Source: Daucus carota subsp. sativus (Eukaryota; Streptophyta; Magnoliopsida; Apiales; Apiaceae). From it: a DNA stretch of 64,000 nucleotides. The position numbers and the translations under genes are program-made. The notes under the pieces are model-generated. The model made no database searches, was not told where the DNA came from, and was given only the letters and a program-made list of their open reading frames with translations. How positions within the stretch are numbered: position 1 is the first letter of the stretch; each line of letters begins with the position of its first letter. The stretch lies in NCBI RefSeq assembly GCF_001625215.2, contig NC_030382.2:47457364-47521363 (forward strand), given 5' to 3'. Shown piece after piece: positions 27,042-41,200 of the stretch.

Positions 27042-27242
27042 GGGTCCTGTTCCCTGACATATGGTTGTCAGGGAACGATTATTTAACAAACGACTTCCCA
27101 GCCGTTGGATGGACGATCCAACGGCTGGGACAAAAGAAAACATTTTTTCCATTCCGCGCTTAAAAACCGCGGACACTGTGTCTATCCGCGCTTTTTTCCG
27201 CGGAGACATACCCTTTCCGCGGTAAAAAACCGCGGACATTCC
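27042..27242. repeat. Left terminal inverted repeat of the MULE with palindromes
   Basis: Pairs with 35708-35907. The outer ~95 bp match the right end with few differences. Inside it are hairpins at about 27050-27074 and 27097-27128, then three CCGCGG/CCGCGC palindromes separated by A/T runs (27151-27238). The transposase ORF starts 178 bp further in. Confidence 0.9.
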
Positions 27243-27419
27243 AGATTGTTTTCGACGCACACTTTATAACCTAGGTGATCAACTTCACTTGTGTTCATCT
27301 TGTTTTGGAAAGTGCAGTGGTGATTTTGTTGATCTTTGGCAAGAATCTGATCCATCTTCCATCTTTGTCGTGGTAAGCTTAATTTGTAGTAGTGTTTTGT
27401 TGATTTTGTTTGTACAATA

Positions 27420-29864
27420 ATGGATAAAATGTTTGCAAGATTTGAAGGTAGAAAAAGTTTGAAAAAAACCAAGAATGTTGATGTACATGATGATAAGGTT
27501 GAATGTGGTCATGATAGAGACAATATTAAGTATGTTGAAGTTGTTGATAGTGATGATGAGGAGTTAGTTAGTGAAGAATTTGATGAAAGTGATAAAATGT
27601 ATGATGATATAGGTAGTATGCATGAAAGTAGTGGTAATTTGCATGATCATGGTGAGGATAATGTTGATGGAGATGACCCTATTATTATTCCCCACTTGAA
27701 TCAACAATTTCCTAATTTACAAGCCGGGGAGAATATGTTTAGGGCGTATGCTTTAAAGAATGGTTTTGCAATTAAGATACAAAACACACAGAAGCGTGCC
27801 AAAGATAAATCCATATATGGTCGATTGTATGTTTGTAATTTAGCGGGAGAAACTCGTGGGAAAAACCCCGTTGATGACGATGAAATTTTGATTGGTAGTC
27901 TTGGTAGTGTTAAGGGCAAACGGCGTAGAGATGTGCTTCCTAGGAGTGGATGCAAAGTTAGAATGTACTTGGTTAATAAGAAAAAAACAAGTCATTGGGA
28001 GATAACCGGTTTGGAATTAGAACACAATCACCAAGTTGTTACGCCTTCTAAGATGAGTTTGATAAGGCGGGAGAAACGTGTTAGCGCGGCACAAAAAAAT
28101 TTGATCAAGAGCTTACATGTTTCGGGTGTCCAACCAAGACAACAAATGAATATATTTGGTAAAATGCACGGTGGAGCGGAACAAGTAGGTTTTAACAGCC
28201 AAAATTTAAGAAATGTCGTACGTGATTTTAGGAAGGACAACATGGGAGTTAATGATGCTCAAGCCGGTTTGGATTTGTTGTACCGTTTGCAAGAAGAGAG
28301 CGGCGGTAAGTTTTTCATCAAGACTCTCCTCGATGACGAACAAAGGTTGAAGTGTCTTGTATGGGTTGATCCCCGCTCTTTGATGGCGTACAAAAACTTC
28401 GGTGATGTGGTTGCGTTCGACACCACATATCGAACTAATAGGTATGCTATGCCGTTTGTGCCTTTCACCGGAGTGAACCATCACTATCAATCAATACTTT
28501 TTGGTTTTGCACTCGTTCGGGATGAATTGAAGACAACTTTTGAGTGGGTTTTGAGTACTTGGCTAGAAGCAATGGAAGGCAAAGAACCCTTGGCTATCAT
28601 AACCGATCAAGATCAAGCTATGGCCGCGGCTATTGAATCACAACTTCCGAACACATCACATTTGTTATGCTCATGGCACATTAGCAACAAATTCCCCGAG
28701 AAACTTGCAACATATTATTCGAAGGAAGGGTTTAAATTTGATTTCAACAATTGCATATATCACTCTTTGACTGAAGATGTGTTTGAAGATCGTTGGAATG
28801 CTTTGGTTTTGAAGTACAATTTGGAAGGCAACACATGGCTTGAAGGGTTATATGCTTTGAAGCATAAGTGGGTCGAGGCTTACACAAGAAACACTTTTTC
28901 TGCGGGTCAAAAGACCACATCAAGAAGTGAAGGAATGAATGCATATTTCGATGCCTATGTTGGTTCTTGCACCGGTTTGAAAGATTTTGTAGAGGGTGCA
29001 CAAAAAGCTTTGGAGAGGCAATTCATGCGTGAGAAAGACGAGGATTATGTGACGTTTCATAGAAGTCGTTGCATGCAAATGAAAACCGCTCTGGAGCACC
29101 ACGCAGCTTCCATTTATACGAAAGAAATGTTTCGAAGATTTCAGGAACAATTGGTTGAATCATCTAAGTACTTTGTGGAGAAAGATAGAGATCGGTCCTT
29201 GGAAGATGTTCAAGACACGTTCTACAAATGTTATAGACCGTTGATGCATGCTTCTCAGAGAAACACGTATCTTGTATCATTCAACAAGGCGTCATTATGG
29301 GGTTCATGCATTTGTAGAATGTATGACAATGTTGGCATACCATGCCGTCACATTATTGCCGTCTTGACGAAGAGGTGTGTGGCTGAACTACCGGCACATT
29401 TTGTGAAACGGCGTTGGACTAGGGACGCCAATAGAGTTGATGGCAAGTTGCCATATCACACGTCCGAATTTCAATCACCATCTCATGAAATGACTCCCAC
29501 GGAAAGATTCAACCACATGACATTACTTACCATGGCGTTTAGTCATAGTTGCATGGCATCGAAAGAGCGGTATGAGTATGCCGTTGGGGTTATTAATCGG
29601 GAAACAGAAATACTTGAGAGCATGCCCGTTGACGGGGTCGAAAACGAAGGAGGTGAATTAAATCCAAAAATAACTCAAGAAGGTGGTGAGAAATTGCATG
29701 AGAGTATCCTTGACCCCTTGGTGTCGAAAACAAAGGGACGGAAAAAAGAGCACCGCTTTAAAAGCCCCGTTGAGGAACTTACAAAAACAAAAAGAAAATG
29801 CCGATATTGCAATATGTTGGGACATGATGTTAGGACGTGTCCCAAAAAAAAGAAGATGATTTAA
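27420..29864 (+). CDS. MURA-type (MULE) transposase with FAR1 domain
   Basis: Intronless 814-residue ORF. Order: acidic N-terminus (~1-85); FAR1-type zinc DNA-binding region (~95-205, NMFRAYALKNGFAIK... ending in ELEHNHQVV); MULE catalytic domain (~310-440) with AFDTTYRTNRY for the first Asp, IITDQDQAM for the second and CSWHISNK; an SWIM zinc finger C-x-C...C-x-H in SCICRMYDNVGIPCRH; and a C-terminal CCHC knuckle CRYCNMLGHDVRTC with basic tail. It should bind the terminal repeats and catalyse cut-and-paste transposition in the nucleus. Domain order also fits the domesticated FAR1/FHY3 family, but its position inside TIRs with a target duplication shows a transposon gene. No break seen. Confidence 0.93.
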   Translation: MDKMFARFEGRKSLKKTKNVDVHDDKVECGHDRDNIKYVEVVDSDDEELVSEEFDESDKMYDDIGSMHESSGNLHDHGEDNVDGDDPIIIPHLNQQFPNLQAGENMFRAYALKNGFAIKIQNTQKRAKDKSIYGRLYVCNLAGETRGKNPVDDDEILIGSLGSVKGKRRRDVLPRSGCKVRMYLVNKKKTSHWEITGLELEHNHQVVTPSKMSLIRREKRVSAAQKNLIKSLHVSGVQPRQQMNIFGKMHGGAEQVGFNSQNLRNVVRDFRKDNMGVNDAQAGLDLLYRLQEESGGKFFIKTLLDDEQRLKCLVWVDPRSLMAYKNFGDVVAFDTTYRTNRYAMPFVPFTGVNHHYQSILFGFALVRDELKTTFEWVLSTWLEAMEGKEPLAIITDQDQAMAAAIESQLPNTSHLLCSWHISNKFPEKLATYYSKEGFKFDFNNCIYHSLTEDVFEDRWNALVLKYNLEGNTWLEGLYALKHKWVEAYTRNTFSAGQKTTSRSEGMNAYFDAYVGSCTGLKDFVEGAQKALERQFMREKDEDYVTFHRSRCMQMKTALEHHAASIYTKEMFRRFQEQLVESSKYFVEKDRDRSLEDVQDTFYKCYRPLMHASQRNTYLVSFNKASLWGSCICRMYDNVGIPCRHIIAVLTKRCVAELPAHFVKRRWTRDANRVDGKLPYHTSEFQSPSHEMTPTERFNHMTLLTMAFSHSCMASKERYEYAVGVINRETEILESMPVDGVENEGGELNPKITQEGGEKLHESILDPLVSKTKGRKKEHRFKSPVEELTKTKRKCRYCNMLGHDVRTCPKKKKMI

Positions 29865-29992
29865 GAAAAGCTCAAACTGGCCAATTGTAATTCACATTTT
29901 AGAAAAATTTCTCTTATGTTTTACTTGTGGTTTATTTGTCCTTCGTATGAGTTGGTGTAACTAACTTGTTCTTTGTTGGATTTGTAGGTGAA

Positions 29993-30817
29993 ATGGCCGA
30001 CGGTTCGGATGATGAGTCAGTGTCACACGTCAGCAACTCAATCTCGGACTCGGAAGAAATGTGTGATTCACCTAGTTTTAGCTTCTTGGAGGACGCGATT
30101 CGTGAGCTCGACGAACTTGCAGAAATGTACGAACCACCATCCCACTCAGAAGAAATGTGTGATTCACCTAGTTTTAGCTTCTTGGAGGAAGCAATTCATG
30201 AGCTAGACGAATTGGCACAGATGCACGAACCACCTCCCCAATTGGAGGAAGAAGACACCGAGTTGTACCCGCCTGAGGAAGCGGCCTACCGGTCAACAAA
30301 TTGGACCGAAGCTTGTCAGTGGTGTGCAAGCGATAACATGTTCGAGAGGGTGGCTTATAACTTGACCCCATATTTTCTACCTATTTTGAACTTGGGTAAG
30401 GACTATCCCGACGGGCCAAACAAAATATCGTTGTGGGATGGTGGTGATATTGTGACGTGTGATAGGATAGCCGACATTATGAAGTTGAGGCCTCGCCCGG
30501 GTTGCACGCGTGACCAAATGCGAATTGAATATGTCAAGGGGTGGGTGTCCAACCTTCGTGGTGATGATACGGGAAAATGGATAACGCGCAAAGAACCATG
30601 GAGCAAATTTCGTCTCTACGATGGGTCTAATAGCATTCATGTCACACTATGGAATGATCACAATACGCATGCCAATGTGACCGAAGGTGTGCTCCGTGAA
30701 GGTTGTGTTGTTGTGCTCTATTGGGTGACATGCTTCATTAGAGCCGATGCGACGCCCGGGCATTCCACACACCGACTATCGGGAGGCTTCTCCAACATTT
30801 TAGCAGTGTTTAGTTAG
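29993..30817 (+). CDS. Second MULE gene: repeat-containing protein with an OB-fold-like C-terminal half
   Basis: 274 residues from MADGSDDESV; an in-frame ATG 27 bp upstream exists but MADG follows a TTGTAG that could be a splice acceptor. Residues ~20-85 are two 32-residue tandem repeats, SEEMCDSPSFSFLE then AI(R/H)ELDELA(E/Q)M(Y/H)EPP, from a 96-bp DNA duplication (30053 and 30149). Residues ~145-250 show the alternating pattern of an OB fold: KISLWDGGDIV, RIEYVKGWVSNLRG, WSKFRLYDGSNSIHVTLWND, LREGCVVVLYWVTC. The FRLYDGS-x-SIHVTLWND piece is like strands 2-3 of RPA-type OB domains. I do not recognise the family. It follows the transposase by 128 bp on the same strand and may share its transcript. 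An accessory ssDNA or end-binding role is inference. Confidence 0.7.
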   Translation: MADGSDDESVSHVSNSISDSEEMCDSPSFSFLEDAIRELDELAEMYEPPSHSEEMCDSPSFSFLEEAIHELDELAQMHEPPPQLEEEDTELYPPEEAAYRSTNWTEACQWCASDNMFERVAYNLTPYFLPILNLGKDYPDGPNKISLWDGGDIVTCDRIADIMKLRPRPGCTRDQMRIEYVKGWVSNLRGDDTGKWITRKEPWSKFRLYDGSNSIHVTLWNDHNTHANVTEGVLREGCVVVLYWVTCFIRADATPGHSTHRLSGGFSNILAVFS

Positions 30818-31795
30818 TTAGCTTCCCCGTACCTGATTAATGTTGATTTCAGGTTTTATATGTATTTTTGTGTAATCGCAACAAAATAGACACCGTTCGA
30901 TGTATTATTGACATTGAAATGACAATATTATGTAGTAATTTCTTTGTTAGTGCTAACATTGTCAAAATGGTACGAGGTTTTGTCATTACTTCAATTATGG
31001 TGTTTCTAGTCTATTGTAATTTATTTATGATTTTTGAACGTGTCTATTCGCAGCAATATGCATGCAAAGTTCACAAAATTGTTCAAAGTGGTCATTTTCC
31101 AAACAAATGGCAATAGGTAATGAAAACATATTGTACGAACTTTTAAAAGTCATAATGTGGTTAAGGGGTCCTAGAAGAGCATATATGAGCATGAAAGCAT
31201 GTAAGAGGAGCTGAAAAAAAAAAAATTTCCCACTGGAATATCCGCGGTAAATAACCGCGGACACTCCAGTCCATCCGCGGTTTTTTACCGCGGATACTCC
31301 AGTGGGAACAGGTGGAATGTGCAGTCTGTTTCTGCACATTCCCACCTGTTTTCAACAGTGTCAAACAATTTTTACTACATAAAAACCTAAATGCAAAGCA
31401 TTCCAACAACAATCTCCCAAAAAAAAAATTCACCAAATTTTGCGAAGCCTTCAAATATACCCCAAAACGTCAAAAATTCTCAAACATCCAAAAAATGACC
31501 ATACTCAAAAAATTCTCAAATTTAATCACAAGATAGAGGTTGACATTCCTAACAATATGCAATAAAGGGGCGGGGGAAACTCAAACGAGAAACACATAAA
31601 CAAAAATTGAATGACGGGGGTCGGGGGGTGGACACGGTCGATAAATGACCGATATAATCAACAACCAAGATATATTGAGATTGAAATAAAGTAAACTACA
31701 TCGTTCAACTTGAATAAATATAACGTAAATGTCATAAACTACGAAAATGTCATAAACTACGAGACTACGAAAATGTCATAAACTACGAAAATGTC
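30818..31795. other. MULE centre between convergent genes
   Basis: Non-coding. It contains the hairpins at 31229-31350 and otherwise AT-rich 3' flanks. Just outside the stop of the PMD-ULP1 gene ATGTCATAAACTACGA is repeated about four times in tandem (31728-31794). Confidence 0.5.
31229..31350. repeat. Central double palindrome of the MULE
   Basis: First palindrome 31229-31306: arms starting CCCACTGGAATATCCGCGG, each arm holding its own CCGCGGTAAA(T/A)AACCGCGG hairpin. The second follows at once (31307-31350): AACAGGTGGAATGTGCAG against CTGCACATTCCCACCTGTT, one base short of perfect. The CCGCGG boxes match those in both termini, yet this copy sits between the 3' ends of convergent genes. Confidence 0.88.
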
Positions 31796-34700
31796 CTATT
31801 CCTTTGCTCCTGCTAGCCTTTGCCGCATAAGATGACTAGGGATTCTCCTCGCTCTCCCTTTCTGAAGCTCTTTGGCAATCCTATAGCGGAATAGGTCAAC
31901 ATCCGAAGTATCCCACGTCAAGGTGGAGAGGTCATAACCTTGCAAGGTGTAGTCCATGTACTTGCAGACGAAGACCCCGCAATCAAAATGATTTTGCTGC
32001 TTCGGCATCTCATCCCAAACATGAACTAGAGGGTCCTCTTTCGGGAACTTTTGACCCTTGGCAAGAAAGCGAAGCATCCCTCCAAGTACACCGACCTACA
32101 AACGACAAAAAAAATGAAAACAAACATCTAAATAAAACCATCATGTATATTAGTAGAAGAGGAGTGAAGGATTTAGTACCATTGCTTCTTCTTCTTCTGG
32201 ATATTCAGCCTTATCATTGAATGGATCGAGAACCATGATTGCCCACTTCTTCACAGCAAATACCATGAGAATCCAGTGATTGTCATTGACATTTGCGGGA
32301 ACAAATATGTAGTCCACCAGGTTGATTGGTGGACCAACCCCACAGCTTCCCCACTTCACATAAAAATGCTTCACCCTCTCCGTCAAATTTTTGTAGTCCA
32401 ATTCCATGGCCAACGGGATGAAGAAGGGATCCATGAAGTAGTACGTAGGCTCCCTAGGGTGGATGCCCTCTGCAGCAATTGCTTCCTCCCGATCACGTAA
32501 CAGCCACTGCATCAAATTATCATATATACATAATTAAACAGAATTATACAAATACAAATATAAATGAACGTACAACATTGGACAGAATTGTACAAAGACA
32601 AATACAGAGACAACATGAACAGAAATTGTACCATGTATGTGTAGATGATCCGATCATCCAACCATGCACCGGGGGCCAGACTCTGCATTGAGATAGGGGC
32701 AAGCGTGAACATAAGATCATGTCTTATACCACCCTCGATACCCACTGTCATACCCCTCCCCCATCCCCAGTCTCTCCGGATAGTATCCATCTTCTCCTGT
32801 GTCAACCTTTTGCTAATCAGCCATTTCTGTTCCGCGGGGCGGCGAACAGTCATCTTCTGGGGCCTCGAAGAAGAAGGCTCTGTAAGGTCTGCAGAGATAT
32901 GTTGAGACGGCTGAGTCATATCAACGACATCGTGTGAAAAGCTGTCTGCAACTAACGGCCTCTTGGCAGAAGGAGAGAGATGGACATGCTCCAACGCCGG
33001 GGGCGTATATGCCGGGCCCCTAACCGTCTGCATGAATCGGCAGTACGGCTCAATGAATATAGGAGCAATCCTGCTGAACTCGTCATGATACTCTGGCGGT
33101 ATGGTAGAGTCCATCCTCTGCAGGCATTCCAGACCCTTCTGGATCTGCATATAGTTTTATGAAATGCAATCAAAAAAGTGACAAACTTGAATACAAATGA
33201 AATGGGAGATAAACTTGAATACAAATGAAATGGGAGATAAACTTACAAGCTGATAGGCCTGGAAGTTGTCAAACAACTCCCGAGTAGAGTACTTAGGCTG
33301 CGGCACTGGCTCTGGCTTCCCGACTCGCAATCGAGAAATCTCCGTGTACCAATGCATGTATCCGGTGTCATCCACTAAGTGAGAACGGTGAGCAACTACA
33401 ACCTCAGGATGCTCCACGAAACGGGACCACTCACCAATCTCCGCAAACCATATAGCACGCCAATCAATGGGATTCCAGGGCAGCTTAGGCTGCCTGTACT
33501 CTGTCATCGAAACTGGGGGTGGTGGGATGCCCTGTGGCAGTCCGAACTGTCTCAACACTCGCTCGGGATGCTGGTACTCCACAATATCATAACAGAGCAA
33601 TGGTACCCTAGCTAGGCCAGCAAAATGTGCCTCCCAATCCTCAGCAGAAATATCATGATCCCCATCTGAATCCTCCTCTATCTCATGAAAATGAGCATAG
33701 GGCATCCAACTAACAATATCGCCAGCAACTCCATCAAACTCGCCTCTGTAATGTGGCAAGCTATGATGAGGAGCCGCTGAACTATCCCGCCTCCCACGTT
33801 TCCTCTTGCCGCCCACAATCCAACCCTCTTCGGTATCCTCCTCCACGGTCTCATCCAAAATATCATCCTCCTTTCCCTTCCCCTTCCCCTTCCCCTTCCC
33901 CTTCCCCTTCCCCTTCCCCTCTCCCTCCTCCTCCTCGTGACCCTTCCCCGTCTTACCCTTACTCCCCTTCCCCTTACTCCCCTTCCCCTTCAACTCCTCC
34001 TTCCCCATCCCCGTCTCCTTCCCCTTCTTCCCCTTCTTCTCCGTCTCCTTCCCTGTCTCCTTCCCCTTCTTCCCCTTCTTCTCCGTCTCCTTCCCCGTCT
34101 TCCCCTTTTTCCCCTTACCCTGGACCTCAACTACTTCCTCCTCTACCGGCTCCTCCTCAATCTCATCAGGCCTGGACCAAAACTCAGCTGCCGGGTAACT
34201 ATCCCTGCTAGGATCCGGGATCGGTCTCCCGATATCAAACCTCTCGTAACTCCACAACATCAGCAACCAGACGCAGCAGGATATCTTCTTTGACCCCTTC
34301 TGTGCAGCTGTAGTCAGACCCCTGTACAGATATGAAAGGACTGCTGATCCCCACGACCATGTACGCACATGGCTCAGTGTGCGAAGATGCCTGATATAGC
34401 GTGGATGGACAACATTCCTACTACTAGTAGGAAATAGGATAGAGCCTACCACGAAGAACATATAGGCCTGTGTGTGAATAGCAATACGCCTCGGATCAGG
34501 ACCTGGATCAGCACTGCCATAGGTCTCAAACAACCAAGTAAGCCTCACCCCTCCTCTAGTAAAGCCATCCTTCACCTGCTGCTCAGTCAACTCCTCAAAC
34601 CATGCCCTCTCGAAATATGACTGGTTACCGTCAATACCATCTCCGACTAGTGGCCGCCCCACAACAGGTAATCCTAGTATGTAGCCGACATCCTCTAAAG

Positions 34701-35004
34701 TGACTGTCATCTCCCCCTGCCTCATGAAAAAGGTATTGGTCTCGGGCCGCCACCTCTCCACTAATGCACTAACAAGCCTTGTATCATTCTGAAGAACAAT
34801 CCTAGGGTTGGCAAACACGCCAAATCCAACCATATGCAAAATCTCCCTCTGCGCGTCTGAAAGAACCCAATGCCTTAACGCCCGGTTACTAGACATACAC
34901 TCCAAAGGACCACGCTCGACTCCATTCCAAACATCTGAACTCACATGGTATGAGTTATCCACGATAACTGCTCCACTAACAGGACCCGGCAAAATATCAT
35001 CCAT
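31796..35004 (-). CDS. Plant mobile domain (PMD) fused to C48/ULP1 protease, MULE-encoded
   Basis: Four exons: 33247-35004, 32632-33144, 32180-32506, 31796-32095, all phase 0, sum 2,898 bp, 965 residues. Residues ~40-270 are a PMD (aminotransferase-like, MAIN/MAIL1 type): HMVGFGVFANPRIVLQND, LVSALVERWRPETNTF, MTVTLEDVGYILGLPVVGRP. A Lys/Gly/Glu repeat of ~100 residues follows (KGKGKG and EKKGKKGKETG). Exons 3-4 form a ULP1-type cysteine protease with the full catalytic set: His in NDNHWILMV, Asp in MVLDPFND, Gln in MPKQQNHFDCG and Cys in FDCGVFVCKY. So it could cleave SUMO or a related modifier in the nucleus. The start MDDILPG follows a TTTCAG acceptor, so a 5' UTR intron is likely (donor near 35537). 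No break seen. Function in transposition is unknown. Confidence 0.88.
33870..34117. repeat. Long polypyrimidine tract inside the PMD-ULP1 exon
   Basis: About 250 bp of nearly pure C/T on the plus strand, made of (CCTTCC) and CCTTCTTCCCCTTCTTCTCC units. On the minus strand it encodes KGKGKG and EKKGKKGKETG repeats. Length changes in multiples of six or three keep frame. Confidence 0.85.
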
Positions 35005-35707
35005 CCTGAAACACAAATACCAATCCAACAATCAATAAACTTAGCATGCATACTAACCGAAGCATACCATGAATTCACAATTTACAATCTATAAACTTAA
35101 CATACCATGAATTACACTTAACAAATACCATGAATTACACTTAACAAATACCATCAATTACACTTAAAATACTATCAATTACACTTAACAAATTCCAATC
35201 CAACAATCAATAAACCACAAACCAACAATAATTTACTATCAACTACACTTAGCATACTATCAATATCCAACAACAATTAGCACTAAAAACAGGAAATTCT
35301 AACTAAAATTTCCTTTGAGGCATTTTCACGAACACTTTACTACGAATAACACATCATCCATAACAATCCATTTATCAAATTAATACTAACCAACAATCAA
35401 TTACACATAATTGATTACATACATACAATCACAACATCCCAATCCAATCAAAACTATAAAATTTATCGATTGCAATACATACATAGAATTCGAAAAAAAA
35501 ACAATGTATATACACGCGAGGATATATATACACGCACCTTTATACGTTCGTTTGAAGCTTGATTGGATTGTAGTATCGGTTGGTGGCAGTTGTGAGAGGA
35601 TGAGAGTGCGAGAGGGTGAGTGTATATAGAGTTTGTGTTAGTGTTTATGTTTGAATATGTAACCGTCCCTGATATATACGTTCGTTTGCGCGTTTTAAAA
35701 CTCACTG
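35005..35707 (-). promoter_or_regulatory. 5' leader and promoter side of the PMD-ULP1 gene
   Basis: Contains a probable 5' UTR intron (acceptor TTTCAG at 35005, donor GTGCGTG near 35537). Within it AATACCATGAATTACACTTA is repeated several times with variations (35105-35200). The right side borders the terminal repeat. Confidence 0.45.
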
Positions 35708-35907
35708 TAATGTCCGCGGTTATTTACCGCGGAAAGGGGGAGTGTCCGCGCACAAAGGCGCGGAAAGGGGGTGTGTCCGCGGTTTTTAAGCGCGGATACT
35801 AAAAAAAGGGATCTTTTGTCCCAGCCGTTGGATCGATGATCCAACGGCTGGGAAGTCGTTTGTTAAATAACTGTTCCCTGACAACCACATGTCAGGGAAC
35901 AGGACCC
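35708..35907. repeat. Right terminal inverted repeat of the MULE
   Basis: Pairs with 27042-27242. It carries CCGCGGTTATTTACCGCGG, a CCGCGC...GCGCGG variant and a CCGCGG...GCGCGG variant, then CAGCCGTTGGATC and CCCTGACA hairpins, ending AGGACCC. Confidence 0.9.
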
Positions 35908-35916
35908 TAATTTGAA

Positions 35917-38292
35917 ATAAAACAAACAATTTTATCATTGTGAAAATAACAGAGGTCTCTTGAAATAACACAAACAATCCATCTGAGATTTAGTGAGAGA
36001 GCTGAAACAGAAGAGGCAAAGCTTTTGTCCTTTGTTTTAGCAATGGCTCCACTCACAAGAAAAGCTCACCATACGTACAGCTTAAGCAATGCAGGGAAAG
36101 TCATGTGGCATTTTCTCCTCTCTGCCCATTGCCTGCCAATGTCTTCAATTCACTGCAACAAGATCTCAGACATTAGGATGTGTTCGTGTGGATCTATCAC
36201 TATTAATAATATATACACACCTCAATTATTGTGTATCCAAATAGGCAAGACACGTTTAAAGCCCGGCCAACGAAATTAGTTTGTTTCTTGCCTCAACACT
36301 ATCAGGTGCGCTGAGTTGACTTGGTAAATTGAAAAGGAAAAAAGTTAGTTAGCAGAAGTTAAAAATATACGAAACTTCCTCCGTCCCGTGAGTAGTATAC
36401 ATTGGGGACAGGATGTTTTATTTTTAATTTTTTTTCTAAATTAAAGTTTAGATTTTATATTTTTATTCAGGAAAAAAACTCAAAAATAAGTTACAGAACT
36501 ATATTTTATAAGCGCATTGAAATGCGTGTCGAGCAGTTGAAAAAAAACGTATACAATTAAATGAGACAGAGGGAGTACGAACTAAAAGCGCATTTATTTT
36601 GTCATCCGATAATCATAAACAAACAAGGGATTATACTGTAGGTCCGCGAATGTGTAATTGCTGAAAAAAAAAAAAAAAAAAACTTCTTCTTCGAGCAAAC
36701 CACGTATCTGGTTATTAGCCACATTATTCAAATTGAATGGCTTAGATAGAAGACAAGATTCCCTAAATGTTTACACGGTAAACATAGAATATGAAAATAA
36801 GCTCATATGTTAATAGAATATTAGGATTGGCGCGGGAAACACAAAAACTGAAAATATGCTCATTTATTCAACAGTTCATGCTAAATTATAATAATCAATT
36901 ATATGTATAATCGTAGTTGGATATGATTTTTTTTATCATTTCTATTTATATATTTATTTATACTATTTATATATTTATTTATATAATAATTAAATATATT
37001 CATAAAAATGTTTACAGTTCAACTCCCACCAATAATGTATTAACTTTTACTGTTCTTATAACATTTTATTTATTCTATAAATAAATAAATATAAAATCTT
37101 GATCACTATATTATCTTTTTTGGTAAAAATATAGAAATATAATAAATCAACAAAAACAATATTTAAATTAATCCATGATATCTAATCGTTTCAAATAAGT
37201 GGAAAAGTACTGGATTTTTTTATTAATTTTTTAAAAAGTAACTAACAGCATCTTGTGACTTATGGGCTGATAAGCCCACTTAAGTCATAGGTTCCCAAAC
37301 AATGCATAGGTCAAGTCTCTCGGCTTTTTTGATTTGCCAAAGGGGCTCTGGAGTCCTAGATATAGGACTAATGCTACTTGCCACAAGTAATTGTGAAAAT
37401 GTAAATAGAAACTTCATTCTCTATATCAGTCAATCACTCGTCTTCAGCATCTCCGACGGATGACGAGTGGAATAATTCCGATGACTCAGAAACCAATTTC
37501 ATTCTTGTGAGTAGTTGTATCATGTAAGTCCTTGTACTCCTGTTTTCCATTTTGTAAGTCATTTTTTCATGAATATTCAACGGTCAAAAATATTTTAATT
37601 TTATTTTTTCAATAAAAAAACATTTAAGTTTTATTCTGAAAAAAGATAATATCAGTTTTAACTATCTAGTCTTTTTCTCAAACAAACTTATTTTATTATA
37701 AAAATCCAAAACCAATCTGTTAGTATTTGTCAGCAATTACAATGCATATTCTTGTCAGCGATTTACTTCACTTTTTTGCCATTTGTATTCGATTGCTGAT
37801 AATTACCTAAATTTTAAACCAAATGTCTAAAATTTAAGTTGTGTGTAATTTTTTTCACAAAATAAAGAAAAGGTTGATTTTGTTTCAGACAAGAAAGCGA
37901 GAATTTCGTTCCAAATTAGTGTCCGAGTTTGTCTCTTCTCCCACGGTCTTAAAGAGCGACATCCATGCAAAATCACCTCTCTATTCTCTCTTTAAAGATG
38001 TGTGCAATGGCGCCATTTCACTTGTCCCGCGTTTCAGAGGGTTGGACTTTGATTTTCTTCTTTGATCCAACCTTACCTTCTCTTCTTCTGGGTAATCTTT
38101 CTTCGAATTCACATGTTTTTCTTTTACTATATAATGCTTAGTTGCAAAAACTTAACTATTCTATTGAAGCTCGAATTATCGACATCTTGTTATGGGACAA
38201 AATTTGGTTTTTGTTAGGCTTCAATGCTAAAAAAATTGCTGCAATTACAAGAAAATGTACAAAACATAACAATTTGGTGATGGAAATGCAGA
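35917..38292. other. Intergenic and upstream region of the MADS gene
   Basis: Includes a weak ORF from 36043 (MAPLTRKAHHTYSLSN, 78 codons) that I cannot match to a family, the MITE at 36374-36574, a poly-A run near 36664-36680, AT-rich sequence, and from about 37.4 kb probable 5' UTR of the MADS gene. Confidence 0.4.
36374..36574. mobile_element. Stowaway-like MITE
   Basis: Left CTTCCTCCGTCCCGTGAG with TAGTATAC; right (reverse complement) CTCCCTCTGTCTCATTTA with ATTGTATACG. About 200 bp, non-coding. Its right end is like that at 26860-26894. Confidence 0.65.
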
Positions 38293-41200
38293 ATGGGGCG
38301 GGTCAAGTTAAAGATTCAAAAGCTGGAGAATAGTACAGGCCGCCAATCGACTTATTCAAAAAGGAAGAATGGTTTAACAAAAAAGGCTAAGGAGTTGGCT
38401 ATTCTGTGTGACATTGATCTTGTTCTTCTCATGTTTTCACCTAGTGGCAAACCCTCAGTATATAAAGGACAGCGCAGGTATATTTACATTTCTACGTTTC
38501 GTTAATGGTAAATCTCACGAGTTTAAATATTCACACTCTCATGCCTCTACCGAGTACAATGCGAGGCATGTCATGTCTCAATATATACATCCCACATTCC
38601 GATTGCTTCATTTGATTGTTATTTCTATATTTATAATTCATAAATTACATCAGTCGTAAATGACACAATCTTTTTTCTACCTTTGCCAGTAGTATTGAAA
38701 AGATCATAGAGAGGTATTCACTTCATACGCCACAAGAGAGAGCAAGAAGGTATCATTTATGATCAAACTCCTAAATCTTGCTTATGTACAGTGCCTGTAA
38801 CACCGGAACTAACTCTGTGTTACTGTTGGTTCATCTTGAACAGGAAACTGGAAAGCCTTGAAGTACGCCAATATTCTACAACTCTATTTTTTGTTACTAT
38901 AATAATTATTAGTTGGTTAACGAAACAAACTTAATATATCCTTTATGATGTTGATCTTAGTTCTGAAAGTGATGCTTATTATTTGAGAATTTAGGCGTTG
39001 AAGAAGACCTTTAAGAAGTCTAATCATGATGTGAAGATACAAGATTTTTTGGGTCCAAAGTAAGTGCAAACTACTTTCATCAATAAAATCTTCAGCATTT
39101 TCTTTAGTGCTCCGTATTAACTTAGTACTATCTTTTTCTCTTATGTTGCAGTTACATATCCGTCGAGGTATGAAGCTAACACTTTTTGAGAAGTATTCTA
39201 ATAGTTAGTTATTGTTATCTTGAGTCTTGCTCCTTCATCCTTGTTTTGGACAGGATTTGAGATCCCAAGCAGAGTCTTTGCATATTCAACTTTCTGAAGC
39301 TCAGAAGAAATTGAGGTGAGCATTTCAAGGTATTTAATAAAGCGAACCTCTCTGTCATTCTGTGTTTAGCATGCATGGTTGTACTTTAATGATTTATCAT
39401 CCCCTTGGTTTGACACTTGACAGTATTTTTTACCAACAATAGTATTCATTTACAAAAAAAAATGTATTCTGCAGTAACTGGACTAGTGTTGATACCATGG
39501 ACAGCATAGAAAATCTGGGGCAAATGGAACTCTTTCTTCGTAATTCCCTTGATCAACTTCAAACACAAAAGGTATTGCTTATATTGAGTATAGTTATGGA
39601 ACACCTAGGTTTTGTGGATCAATTGTCATTCTTTACTACTACCAAAAGGTCCAAAACTAAACAATTGACAACATTGATATGTAAGAATCTGAGGAAAACA
39701 ATGGTTGAATGAACTTTATACTACTACGTGGTGTGGGATTATCTTGAAATTGTTAAACATGAAGTCTATACAGCAGCAGATGTTGTGATATCTGCCCAGC
39801 TTAAGCTCGCAAGAAATGATAGATGTCGAAATTTCAAAATAGGAGGCTGAGTGCTAGAGAAGACCCAGATTTGACAACCATTCTGCCTGAATTTTATATG
39901 TTTATAGTTGTTTTGGATGTCTTTCCTTGCATGTGGTTTGAGTGATTCTGTACATTGTTTGGGTCAGTTGAAAAATATGTTAAGATAGTGTGAGCGCTTG
40001 GATTGCTTGACCTTCTTTCAATTCATGTTAATTGCACATGTGAGAGCAACTATCAACATATGGATTTTATACAGCACAGACACTTTCCGTGTTAAATAGT
40101 GAGGCTCCCCATTACTGCTTGATAATAAATAAGGGTTACCTACAGTTTCTAAGTATGATTTGATTATAATGTCAAGATTTTTTATTTATCAGGTAAATCT
40201 TGAGAAGCAACAACAGATGGATATGCAGTACTTTAACAAGGTATTTTATGGCAACTATCTTTAGATTTGATGAAAATTTTAATGAAGATACTCATGAGAC
40301 AGGGTAGCTTAATTTAAGTCAATAATGCAGTTTCAAGATGATTGGCATCCACCTTCGACCTTGGGTTACGAACAGCTTCAACCTTTGCAGTGGGTACCTA
40401 ATAGTCACCGTCAAGAAATCACACCAAACAACTTGACCTCATTTCCTCCAAGGTAAAGTGGTCACTTAAATGTGAACCTTTGCTTAATTATGTTGAAGGT
40501 TGTATACTCAGTTCACTCTTTTGAAATCAAAGATCATATTATCCGAGGCCACACTTAATGAACACTGAGATAATCTATATGTGGCTACTACATATATGGC
40601 TGTTGAAGAATAAATAACAATATTTGAATCCTTCCCTCATGATATATGTGCCCAGCTTGACAACATCGGGTCTTTGCAGGGAACCGGAGTGCTCTGTGGG
40701 TACCTCCATTGAGAACTATAAGAATATAATCAACAGGGGAGAAGGGGTAGTCACACCTAAAGAGTGGCAGCAAGACAACTTTCTAGCCGAGTTGAACAGC
40801 AGGGGATCTATGAATTTACTGCCGAATAACCAATTCAATTTTCAAGTGCATGAACAGCTAATACACCCATCAAGCAACTTTGATTTGTCAAATGATCAAG
40901 ATTTTTTACCAGTGGAACAGATCAATATGCAAGCAAATGCTATGGAACCTCTTCCTTATAGCAAACTCGAAGTTCCTCAATCTGTCTATGATCCCTTTCA
41001 CAATAATTGGGATTCTAACACCGCAGGAACTTGTGGAACTGAAACAATTGAAAAGCACTTGCTTCCACAGGCAAGTTCTTAGACATTCACATCTAAATTG
41101 CAAGATTTATTTTGGCCACTTCCCTGTAAGATTGCTTACATTTTTTTGTTTGGTAAAAGTTAAATTAGCTCTACTTCTGTACAATGAAGGAAGATGAAAG

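Follow-up and report, generated by a model that had tools for sequence, protein, structure and literature searches.

In the stretch of carrot DNA analysed here (Daucus carota subsp. sativus, contig NC_030382.2; 64,000 nucleotides, hereafter the window), an open reading frame of 274 codons lies close behind a Mutator-like (MULE) transposase. The question raised by this locus is whether the reading frame is a gene of the transposon and, if so, what its protein would do there. The initial annotation had described it as an OB-fold-like gene inside a Mutator-like element and had proposed a nucleic-acid-binding helper, analogous in role to the RPA proteins of Helitrons. Coordinates of the features are collected in Table 1, in positions of the window.

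Table 1. Features of the Mutator-like element in the window, with strand and basis of assignment
Feature	Position	Strand	Basis
Left 9-bp target site duplication, TAATTTGAA	27033..27041		
Complete Mutator-like element, 8,866 bp	27042..35907	+	inverted-repeat scan, ends and target site duplication
Left terminal inverted repeat, first letters GGGTCCTGTTCCCTGACA	27042..27252	+	inverted-repeat scan
Candidate 5' splice site G/GTAAGC, 47 nt upstream of the MURA ATG	27373..27378	+	predicted
MURA transposase, 814 aa	27420..29864	+	Pfam
Alternative candidate 5' splice site GTAATT, 22 nt past the MURA stop	29887..29892	+	predicted
Candidate branch point (GTAACTAAC) and 3' splice site TTTGTAG/G, ending 5 nt before the second-gene ATG	29957..29987	+	
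Second MULE gene, 274 aa: acidic N-terminal part and OB-like C-terminal domain	29993..30817	+	ORF, ATG to stop
Two tandem 32-residue acidic repeats, residues 18-49 and 50-81, 27/32 identical	30044..30235	+	
OB-like domain, residues 175-274; PF01336 match at residues 181-241	30515..30814	+	
Cargo gene pieces: plant mobile domain (PMD) and Ulp1-type cysteine protease	31796..35031	-	Pfam
Right terminal inverted repeat	35697..35907	-	inverted-repeat scan
Right 9-bp target site duplication, TAATTTGAA, perfect copy of the left	35908..35916		

The element around the gene is a MULE: it has a MURA transposase containing the MULE domain, terminal inverted repeats (TIRs) and a perfect 9-bp target site duplication (TSD). 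The TIRs measure about 211 bp, and the inverted-repeat scan gave 85% identity over 212 nt, a length that counts one flanking base per side. MURA matched PF10551 (MULE transposase, E 7.2e-30), PF03101 (FAR1 DNA-binding, 4.6e-14) and PF04434 (SWIM, 6.1e-5) and has a CCHC knuckle motif at its C-terminus. The cargo gene matched PF10536 (E 2.2e-63) and PF02902 (E 6.9e-9 in one ORF piece and 4.5e-8 in a second, separate one).

Other sequence features were observed in and around the element. A 35-nt inverted repeat with a CCGCGG motif, which recurs in the element ends, lies between the second gene and the PMD-Ulp1 gene (31227-31308), and a low-complexity Lys/Gly/Glu repeat (KGKGKGK, ETEKKGKKGK) is found in the cargo gene behind the PMD (33880-34110, minus strand). 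Outside the element, the start of a gene, presumably MADS-box-like, was judged by eye from the sequence at 38290-38480 on the plus strand.

The second gene begins 128 bp past the MURA stop (29864), on the same strand, and sits between MURA and the opposite-strand PMD/Ulp1 gene. Its length, strand, spacing to the transposase and two 32-residue acidic repeats were all confirmed in the sequence as first described, and the strand-like stretches that had been quoted for the C-terminal half are present in the translated ORF. Residues 1-100 contain 31 D+E against 2 K+R. The number of repeats differs by subfamily, with two in A, one in B and a different repeat in C. Among four representatives the N-terminal part was strongly acidic in all (net charge -33, -22, -30 and -16), and the positive charge of the C-domain was weak or none (+4, +2, -3 and +6). 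Positions invariant among eight aligned C-domains include R...VKG.V..L, F..YD.S..I.V and LS.G.S..L..F. The tryptophan of the 'TLW' strand, which we take to be at the position of the residue that stacks on DNA in RPA, is replaced by glycine in loci L037, L038 and L045 and is absent in L036; it is not conserved in subfamily C.

Relatives were searched for in the window's own genome (441 Mb, 11 contigs). Using the second-gene protein as query, tblastn returned at least 65 matching stretches, which were merged with those of two divergent queries into 57 places (copies or fragments), after secondary pieces of one copy were dropped. By coordinates, and among the MURA matches listed, 44 of the 57 places have a MURA match within 6 kb upstream on the same strand; three more (L016, L019 and L038) show MURA in the fetched DNA, which brings the count to 47/57. 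No MURA was found in the 2.2 kb fetched at L046 (C8:17853203), and another search for MURA, which scored 61 of 1004 candidates, set none beside the nine remaining places, which are known by coordinates only. In 25 fetched loci of at least 5 kb (20 from the top of the ranked list and five divergent ones that were picked), MURA homology was present upstream and on the same strand for 26/26 copies of the gene, amounting in L038 to 71 residues only. A PMD or Ulp1 match was detected in 20 of these 25 loci. An ends scan of 20 loci identified both ends in 11, with identical 9-bp flanks in ten; the eleventh, L010, was paired with an inner site. Even at L039, where MURA is 42% and the second gene 31% identical to the window copies, the two are still paired.

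The claim that the gene is MULE-encoded is therefore borne out, by MURA upstream at 47/57 places and by the 9-bp flanks at 10/11 loci with both ends. The proposed search for homologues in 9-bp-TSD elements beside MURA, run within the own genome, found them so placed. The opposite case, homologues occurring only as host genes, was not encountered: no host-gene relative was recognised in the own genome among the matches listed, nine of the 57 places being known by coordinates only. Scans of viral contigs and genome contigs returned no prokaryotic or viral relatives. Three copies, the one in the window and a pair from a single palindromic locus, encode 100% identical proteins, and no stop interrupts the eight best tblastn rows; both observations indicate that the family moved recently.

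The palindromic relative (L009 748-10000 with L051, G000:C1:5617940-5627497) carries the MURA-OB and OB-MURA pairs tail to tail, with arms 99.7% identical and the 9-bp TSD AACTAACAA on both sides; no PMD or Ulp1 match was found at L009. It may have moved as a unit, may result from aberrant gap repair in place or may be an assembly error.

Selection was estimated from pairs of copies. Between the window and L022 (subfamily B), dN was 0.123 and dS 0.408 for the second gene (dN/dS 0.302), and dN/dS was 0.277 for the C-domain and 0.251 for MURA. The second gene is under purifying selection, similar to MURA. Deeper pairs saturate at synonymous sites (window versus L037, pS 0.83 and pN 0.39; window versus L039, pS 0.80 and pN 0.48). 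Between L039 and subfamily C, the C-domain is 45-48% identical for most members and MURA 43-45%; divergence is thus about equal in the two, which agrees with co-descent. Given its many copies, its divergent subfamilies beside MURA and a dN/dS of about 0.30, the ORF at 29993-30817 is a real gene of the element and not a chance ORF.

Not every MURA is followed by this gene. Among the MURA matches listed, 21 of 66 MURA places have no OB place downstream, and ten of those 21 form one group, 44-48% identical to the MURA of subfamily C. Members of this group are mostly 58-63% identical to the MURA of L039, a locus that bears the OB gene, and are closer to it than A, B or C are, which makes them the nearest MURA relatives found for L039. 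In about 2 kb behind MURA at four loci of the group, an OB ORF was found in none (0/4), so the gene would be dispensable for some related MURAs. The simplest reading is that it was present in the common ancestor and was then lost in the L039-like group; later exchange may also explain the distribution. At three of the four loci (L047, L048 and L050), MURA is followed by a short, extremely acidic ORF of the same orientation, preceded, as judged by eye, by a TATA-like box. The idea that it is a shorter homologue was set aside, as it has no OB part and no similar acceptor by eye; it may be the own, independent second gene of a different group of MULEs.

Whether the C-terminal half is an OB fold was addressed with profile and structure searches. 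PF01336, an OB family, matched the window protein with E 0.001 at full length and 1.8e-4 for the C-terminal 115 aa, and L039, the most distant intact copy, matched PF15072 (HROB, an OB family) with E 0.02 at full length and 0.0038 for the C-domain. At E<=10, four of eight C-domains matched PF01336 (best 4.8e-5) and four PF15072 (best 0.0038), with no other Pfam family found; the eight include close relatives, so these outcomes are not independent, and which member matches which family is resolved for L039 only. Curated cut-offs were not reached (PF01336, 19.4-21.8 bits among the rows shown versus 27; HROB, 17.6 versus 30.8). As a control, ten shuffled C-domains were searched: two matched any family, one of them an unrelated family at E 0.0015, and none matched an OB family (0/10). 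Because one shuffle reached this value, matches near 1e-3 are weak on their own. L037 at full length matched nothing in Pfam, and NCBIfam returned nothing relevant to the second-gene protein.

Structural comparisons were less informative. AlphaFold models of the lone sequence, computed without an alignment, reached a pLDDT of 37.8 for the whole protein and 38.4 for the C-terminal 115 residues; both are too poor to use, and a Foldseek search with the latter was uninformative, placing Ran-binding domains on top (E 0.11, rmsd 14 A). Against the PDB no significant OB match was found, either with the full-length protein (one chain only, an actin-depolymerising factor, E 1.9) or with the C-domain profile, which retrieved four chains, the best two from Replication factor A (E 0.26 and 0.46) and the others from SMURF. 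The C-domain of L039 alone matched MUS81 chains from E 0.0066, by name not an OB protein. Profile-profile comparison with DBD-A, B and C of host RPA (RPA1-like L029 and L030) stayed within column-shuffle noise. The OB-like pattern first noticed in the C-terminal half stands in part: its Pfam matches go to two OB families only and its shuffles to none, but the scores remain below the cut-offs. Judged from these profile matches, it quite probably folds as an OB.

Splice-like signals surround the gene; site scores come from an approximate matrix. Among 183 AG sites between 27042 and 30100, the candidate acceptor TTTGTAG/G has the top score. TGTAG/G directly precedes the ATG in subfamilies A to D, although by eye the rest of the spacer differs widely between A or B on one side and C or D on the other; variants are TGTAAG in L016 and TATAG in L017. 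For the donor, the candidate in the leader of MURA ranks 5 of 204 GT sites, and the four higher-scoring sites lie inside MURA. G/GTAA or G/GTTA occurs 25 to 108 nt upstream of the MURA ATG in 23/23 leaders, with a mononucleotide-shuffled expectation of 0.25 each, the leaders amounting to about four lineages since they are related. In 22 of the 23, the part of the 110-nt stretch that precedes this donor contains no ATG; for the far donors this part is only a few bases. The alternative donor, GTAATT or GTAACT about 20 nt past the MURA stop, is seen by eye in A, B and C, and the window site ranks 12 of 204. A spacing of 128 bp leaves little room for a promoter between the genes. Together these signals suggest that the second-gene protein would be made by splicing past MURA. 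Fusion of the ORF to MURA by splicing is ruled out in L036, L037 and L040 (TGA) and in L039 (TAG) by an in-frame stop between acceptor and ATG; L038 has none, and such a fusion may occur there and in subfamilies A and B.

On balance, we read the ORF as probably the conserved second gene of a three-gene MULE, encoding a stand-alone accessory protein with an acidic and an OB-like part, translated from its own ATG after an intron and likely a cofactor of MURA. The mRNA would have an intron ending 5 nt before the second-gene ATG, at which translation would start. Its donor could lie in the 5' leader, in which case the whole of MURA would be skipped and a separate mRNA made, or about 22 nt past the MURA stop. 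The protein would then assist its own MURA in transposition as a cofactor. During cutting and joining of the ends, insertion or gap repair, the OB domain might hold single-stranded DNA, dock to MURA or host repair proteins, or bridge the two, and the acidic tail might be the tether. As the element keeps the second gene with MURA, a role together with MURA is the simplest reading. Splicing, DNA binding and the cofactor role are all inferred from sequence.

Plant Helitrons offer one point of comparison, as they carry OB-type proteins that are recognisable homologues of host RPA. The second-gene protein resembles these as an OB-like, probably OB-type, protein on a transposon, but differs from them in that profile-profile comparison revealed no significant similarity between it and host RPA. 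By analogy, an RPA-like role is possible.

Compared with the excerpted parts of published descriptions, the gene order is familiar. Barley Hvu_Abermu (8,176 bp, 9-bp TSD) has ORF1 as MURA, an ORF2 in the same direction and an opposite ORFR; the function of ORF2 is given as 'not clear', with a Ka/Ks of 0.60-0.77, below 1, and type I is reported only in Triticeae and Poeae (PMC9168764). The window's element is like Abermu type I in its MURA, same-strand second ORF, opposite ORF and 9-bp TSD, a likeness of layout. It differs in its TIRs, about 211 bp against 138-145 bp, and in its opposite ORF, which is a PMD-Ulp1 gene here, and ORFR is given without such an assignment in the excerpt of PMC9168764. 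Since it was already published for Abermu, the three-ORF layout is not new (PMC9168764). In KI-MULE / KAONASHI elements an Ulp1 gene likewise stands in reverse orientation to mudrA (PMC2528002) and is one of three coding genes (PMC13317346), as in the window's element, where Ulp1 lies opposite to MURA; unlike KI-MULE, described as non-TIR, the latter has TIRs of about 211 bp. In the MUDR group, most members are reported to have the PMD in antisense (PMC6446971). MuDR also carries a second gene beside its transposase, mudrB / MURB (PMC6446971, PMC9168764), described as of unknown function and said to be required for insertion (PMC6446971). It is set apart by layout, as mudrB lies opposite to mudrA and the window's second gene on the strand of MURA. 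Os3378 and Muta1 are reported as MULEs that move with one gene (PMC9168764). VANDAL elements have three genes including the transposase (VANA, VANB and VANC), as here, and differ in that VANC carries DUF1985 and DUF287 (PMC5735166, PMC10398659).

What is new here is the OB-like domain, the depth of its conservation and the splice-like signals. No OB domain assigned to a MULE protein was found in the open-licence literature searched, which lacks most subscription journals.

Several other explanations have to be weighed. Many OB domains serve in protein docking, and the protein might be an adaptor that contacts MURA or host factors through its acidic tail and OB domain without touching DNA itself. 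The strongly acidic N-terminal part of all four representatives, the weak or missing positive charge of the C-domain and the lack of conservation of the TLW tryptophan in subfamily C would all suit this, but the same evidence fits DNA binding equally and the binding partner is only postulated, so we hold it to be possible, with the odds leaning against it. Rather less likely is that the C-terminal half adopts a different, beta-rich fold and resembles an OB by chance; the poor lone-sequence models (pLDDT 38), weak Pfam scores, mixed PDB matches and the one shuffle at E 0.0015 against an unrelated family speak for it, and against it stands that members of the family match no Pfam family beyond two different OB ones.

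Capture of host sequence is frequent among MULEs, and the gene could accordingly be a captured host fragment, a passenger in the manner of Pack-MULEs with no part in transposition. How common such capture is, the OB-family genes present in the own genome and the absence of the second gene from a related MURA group would agree with a passenger; we nevertheless consider it very improbable, given that no host-gene relative was recognised in the own genome among the matches listed and that the gene was kept over divergences saturating synonymous sites, under selection like that of MURA. Improbable, if somewhat less so, is that the protein is the counterpart of VANB or an anti-silencing factor, keeping the element expressed rather than moving it. 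The three-gene layout parallels VANA, VANB and VANC, and in the excerpts of the relevant papers VANC is linked to anti-silencing and some VANC genes have an Ulp1 domain (KIU; PMC5735166, PMC13317346). The likeness is, however, one of gene layout, and a construct without VANA and VANB still gave sequence-specific hypomethylation, for which reason anti-silencing belongs to VANC (PMC5735166).

The reading as an accessory protein of MURA could be extended, speculatively, to an old three-gene MULE lineage that encodes an OB-fold cofactor of its own with no detectable relationship to host RPA. Splicing from leader to ATG would let one promoter serve both products, with unspliced RNA giving the transposase and spliced RNA the cofactor, and Abermu ORF2, perhaps also other MULE second genes, would be the same protein. 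An OB-like second gene kept with MURA over deep divergence would provide a handle on single-stranded DNA binding, MURA binding and a need in insertion. Since the OB gene is missing from the examined loci of a MURA group near L039, a single genome offers elements that have the helper and elements that lack it for comparison.
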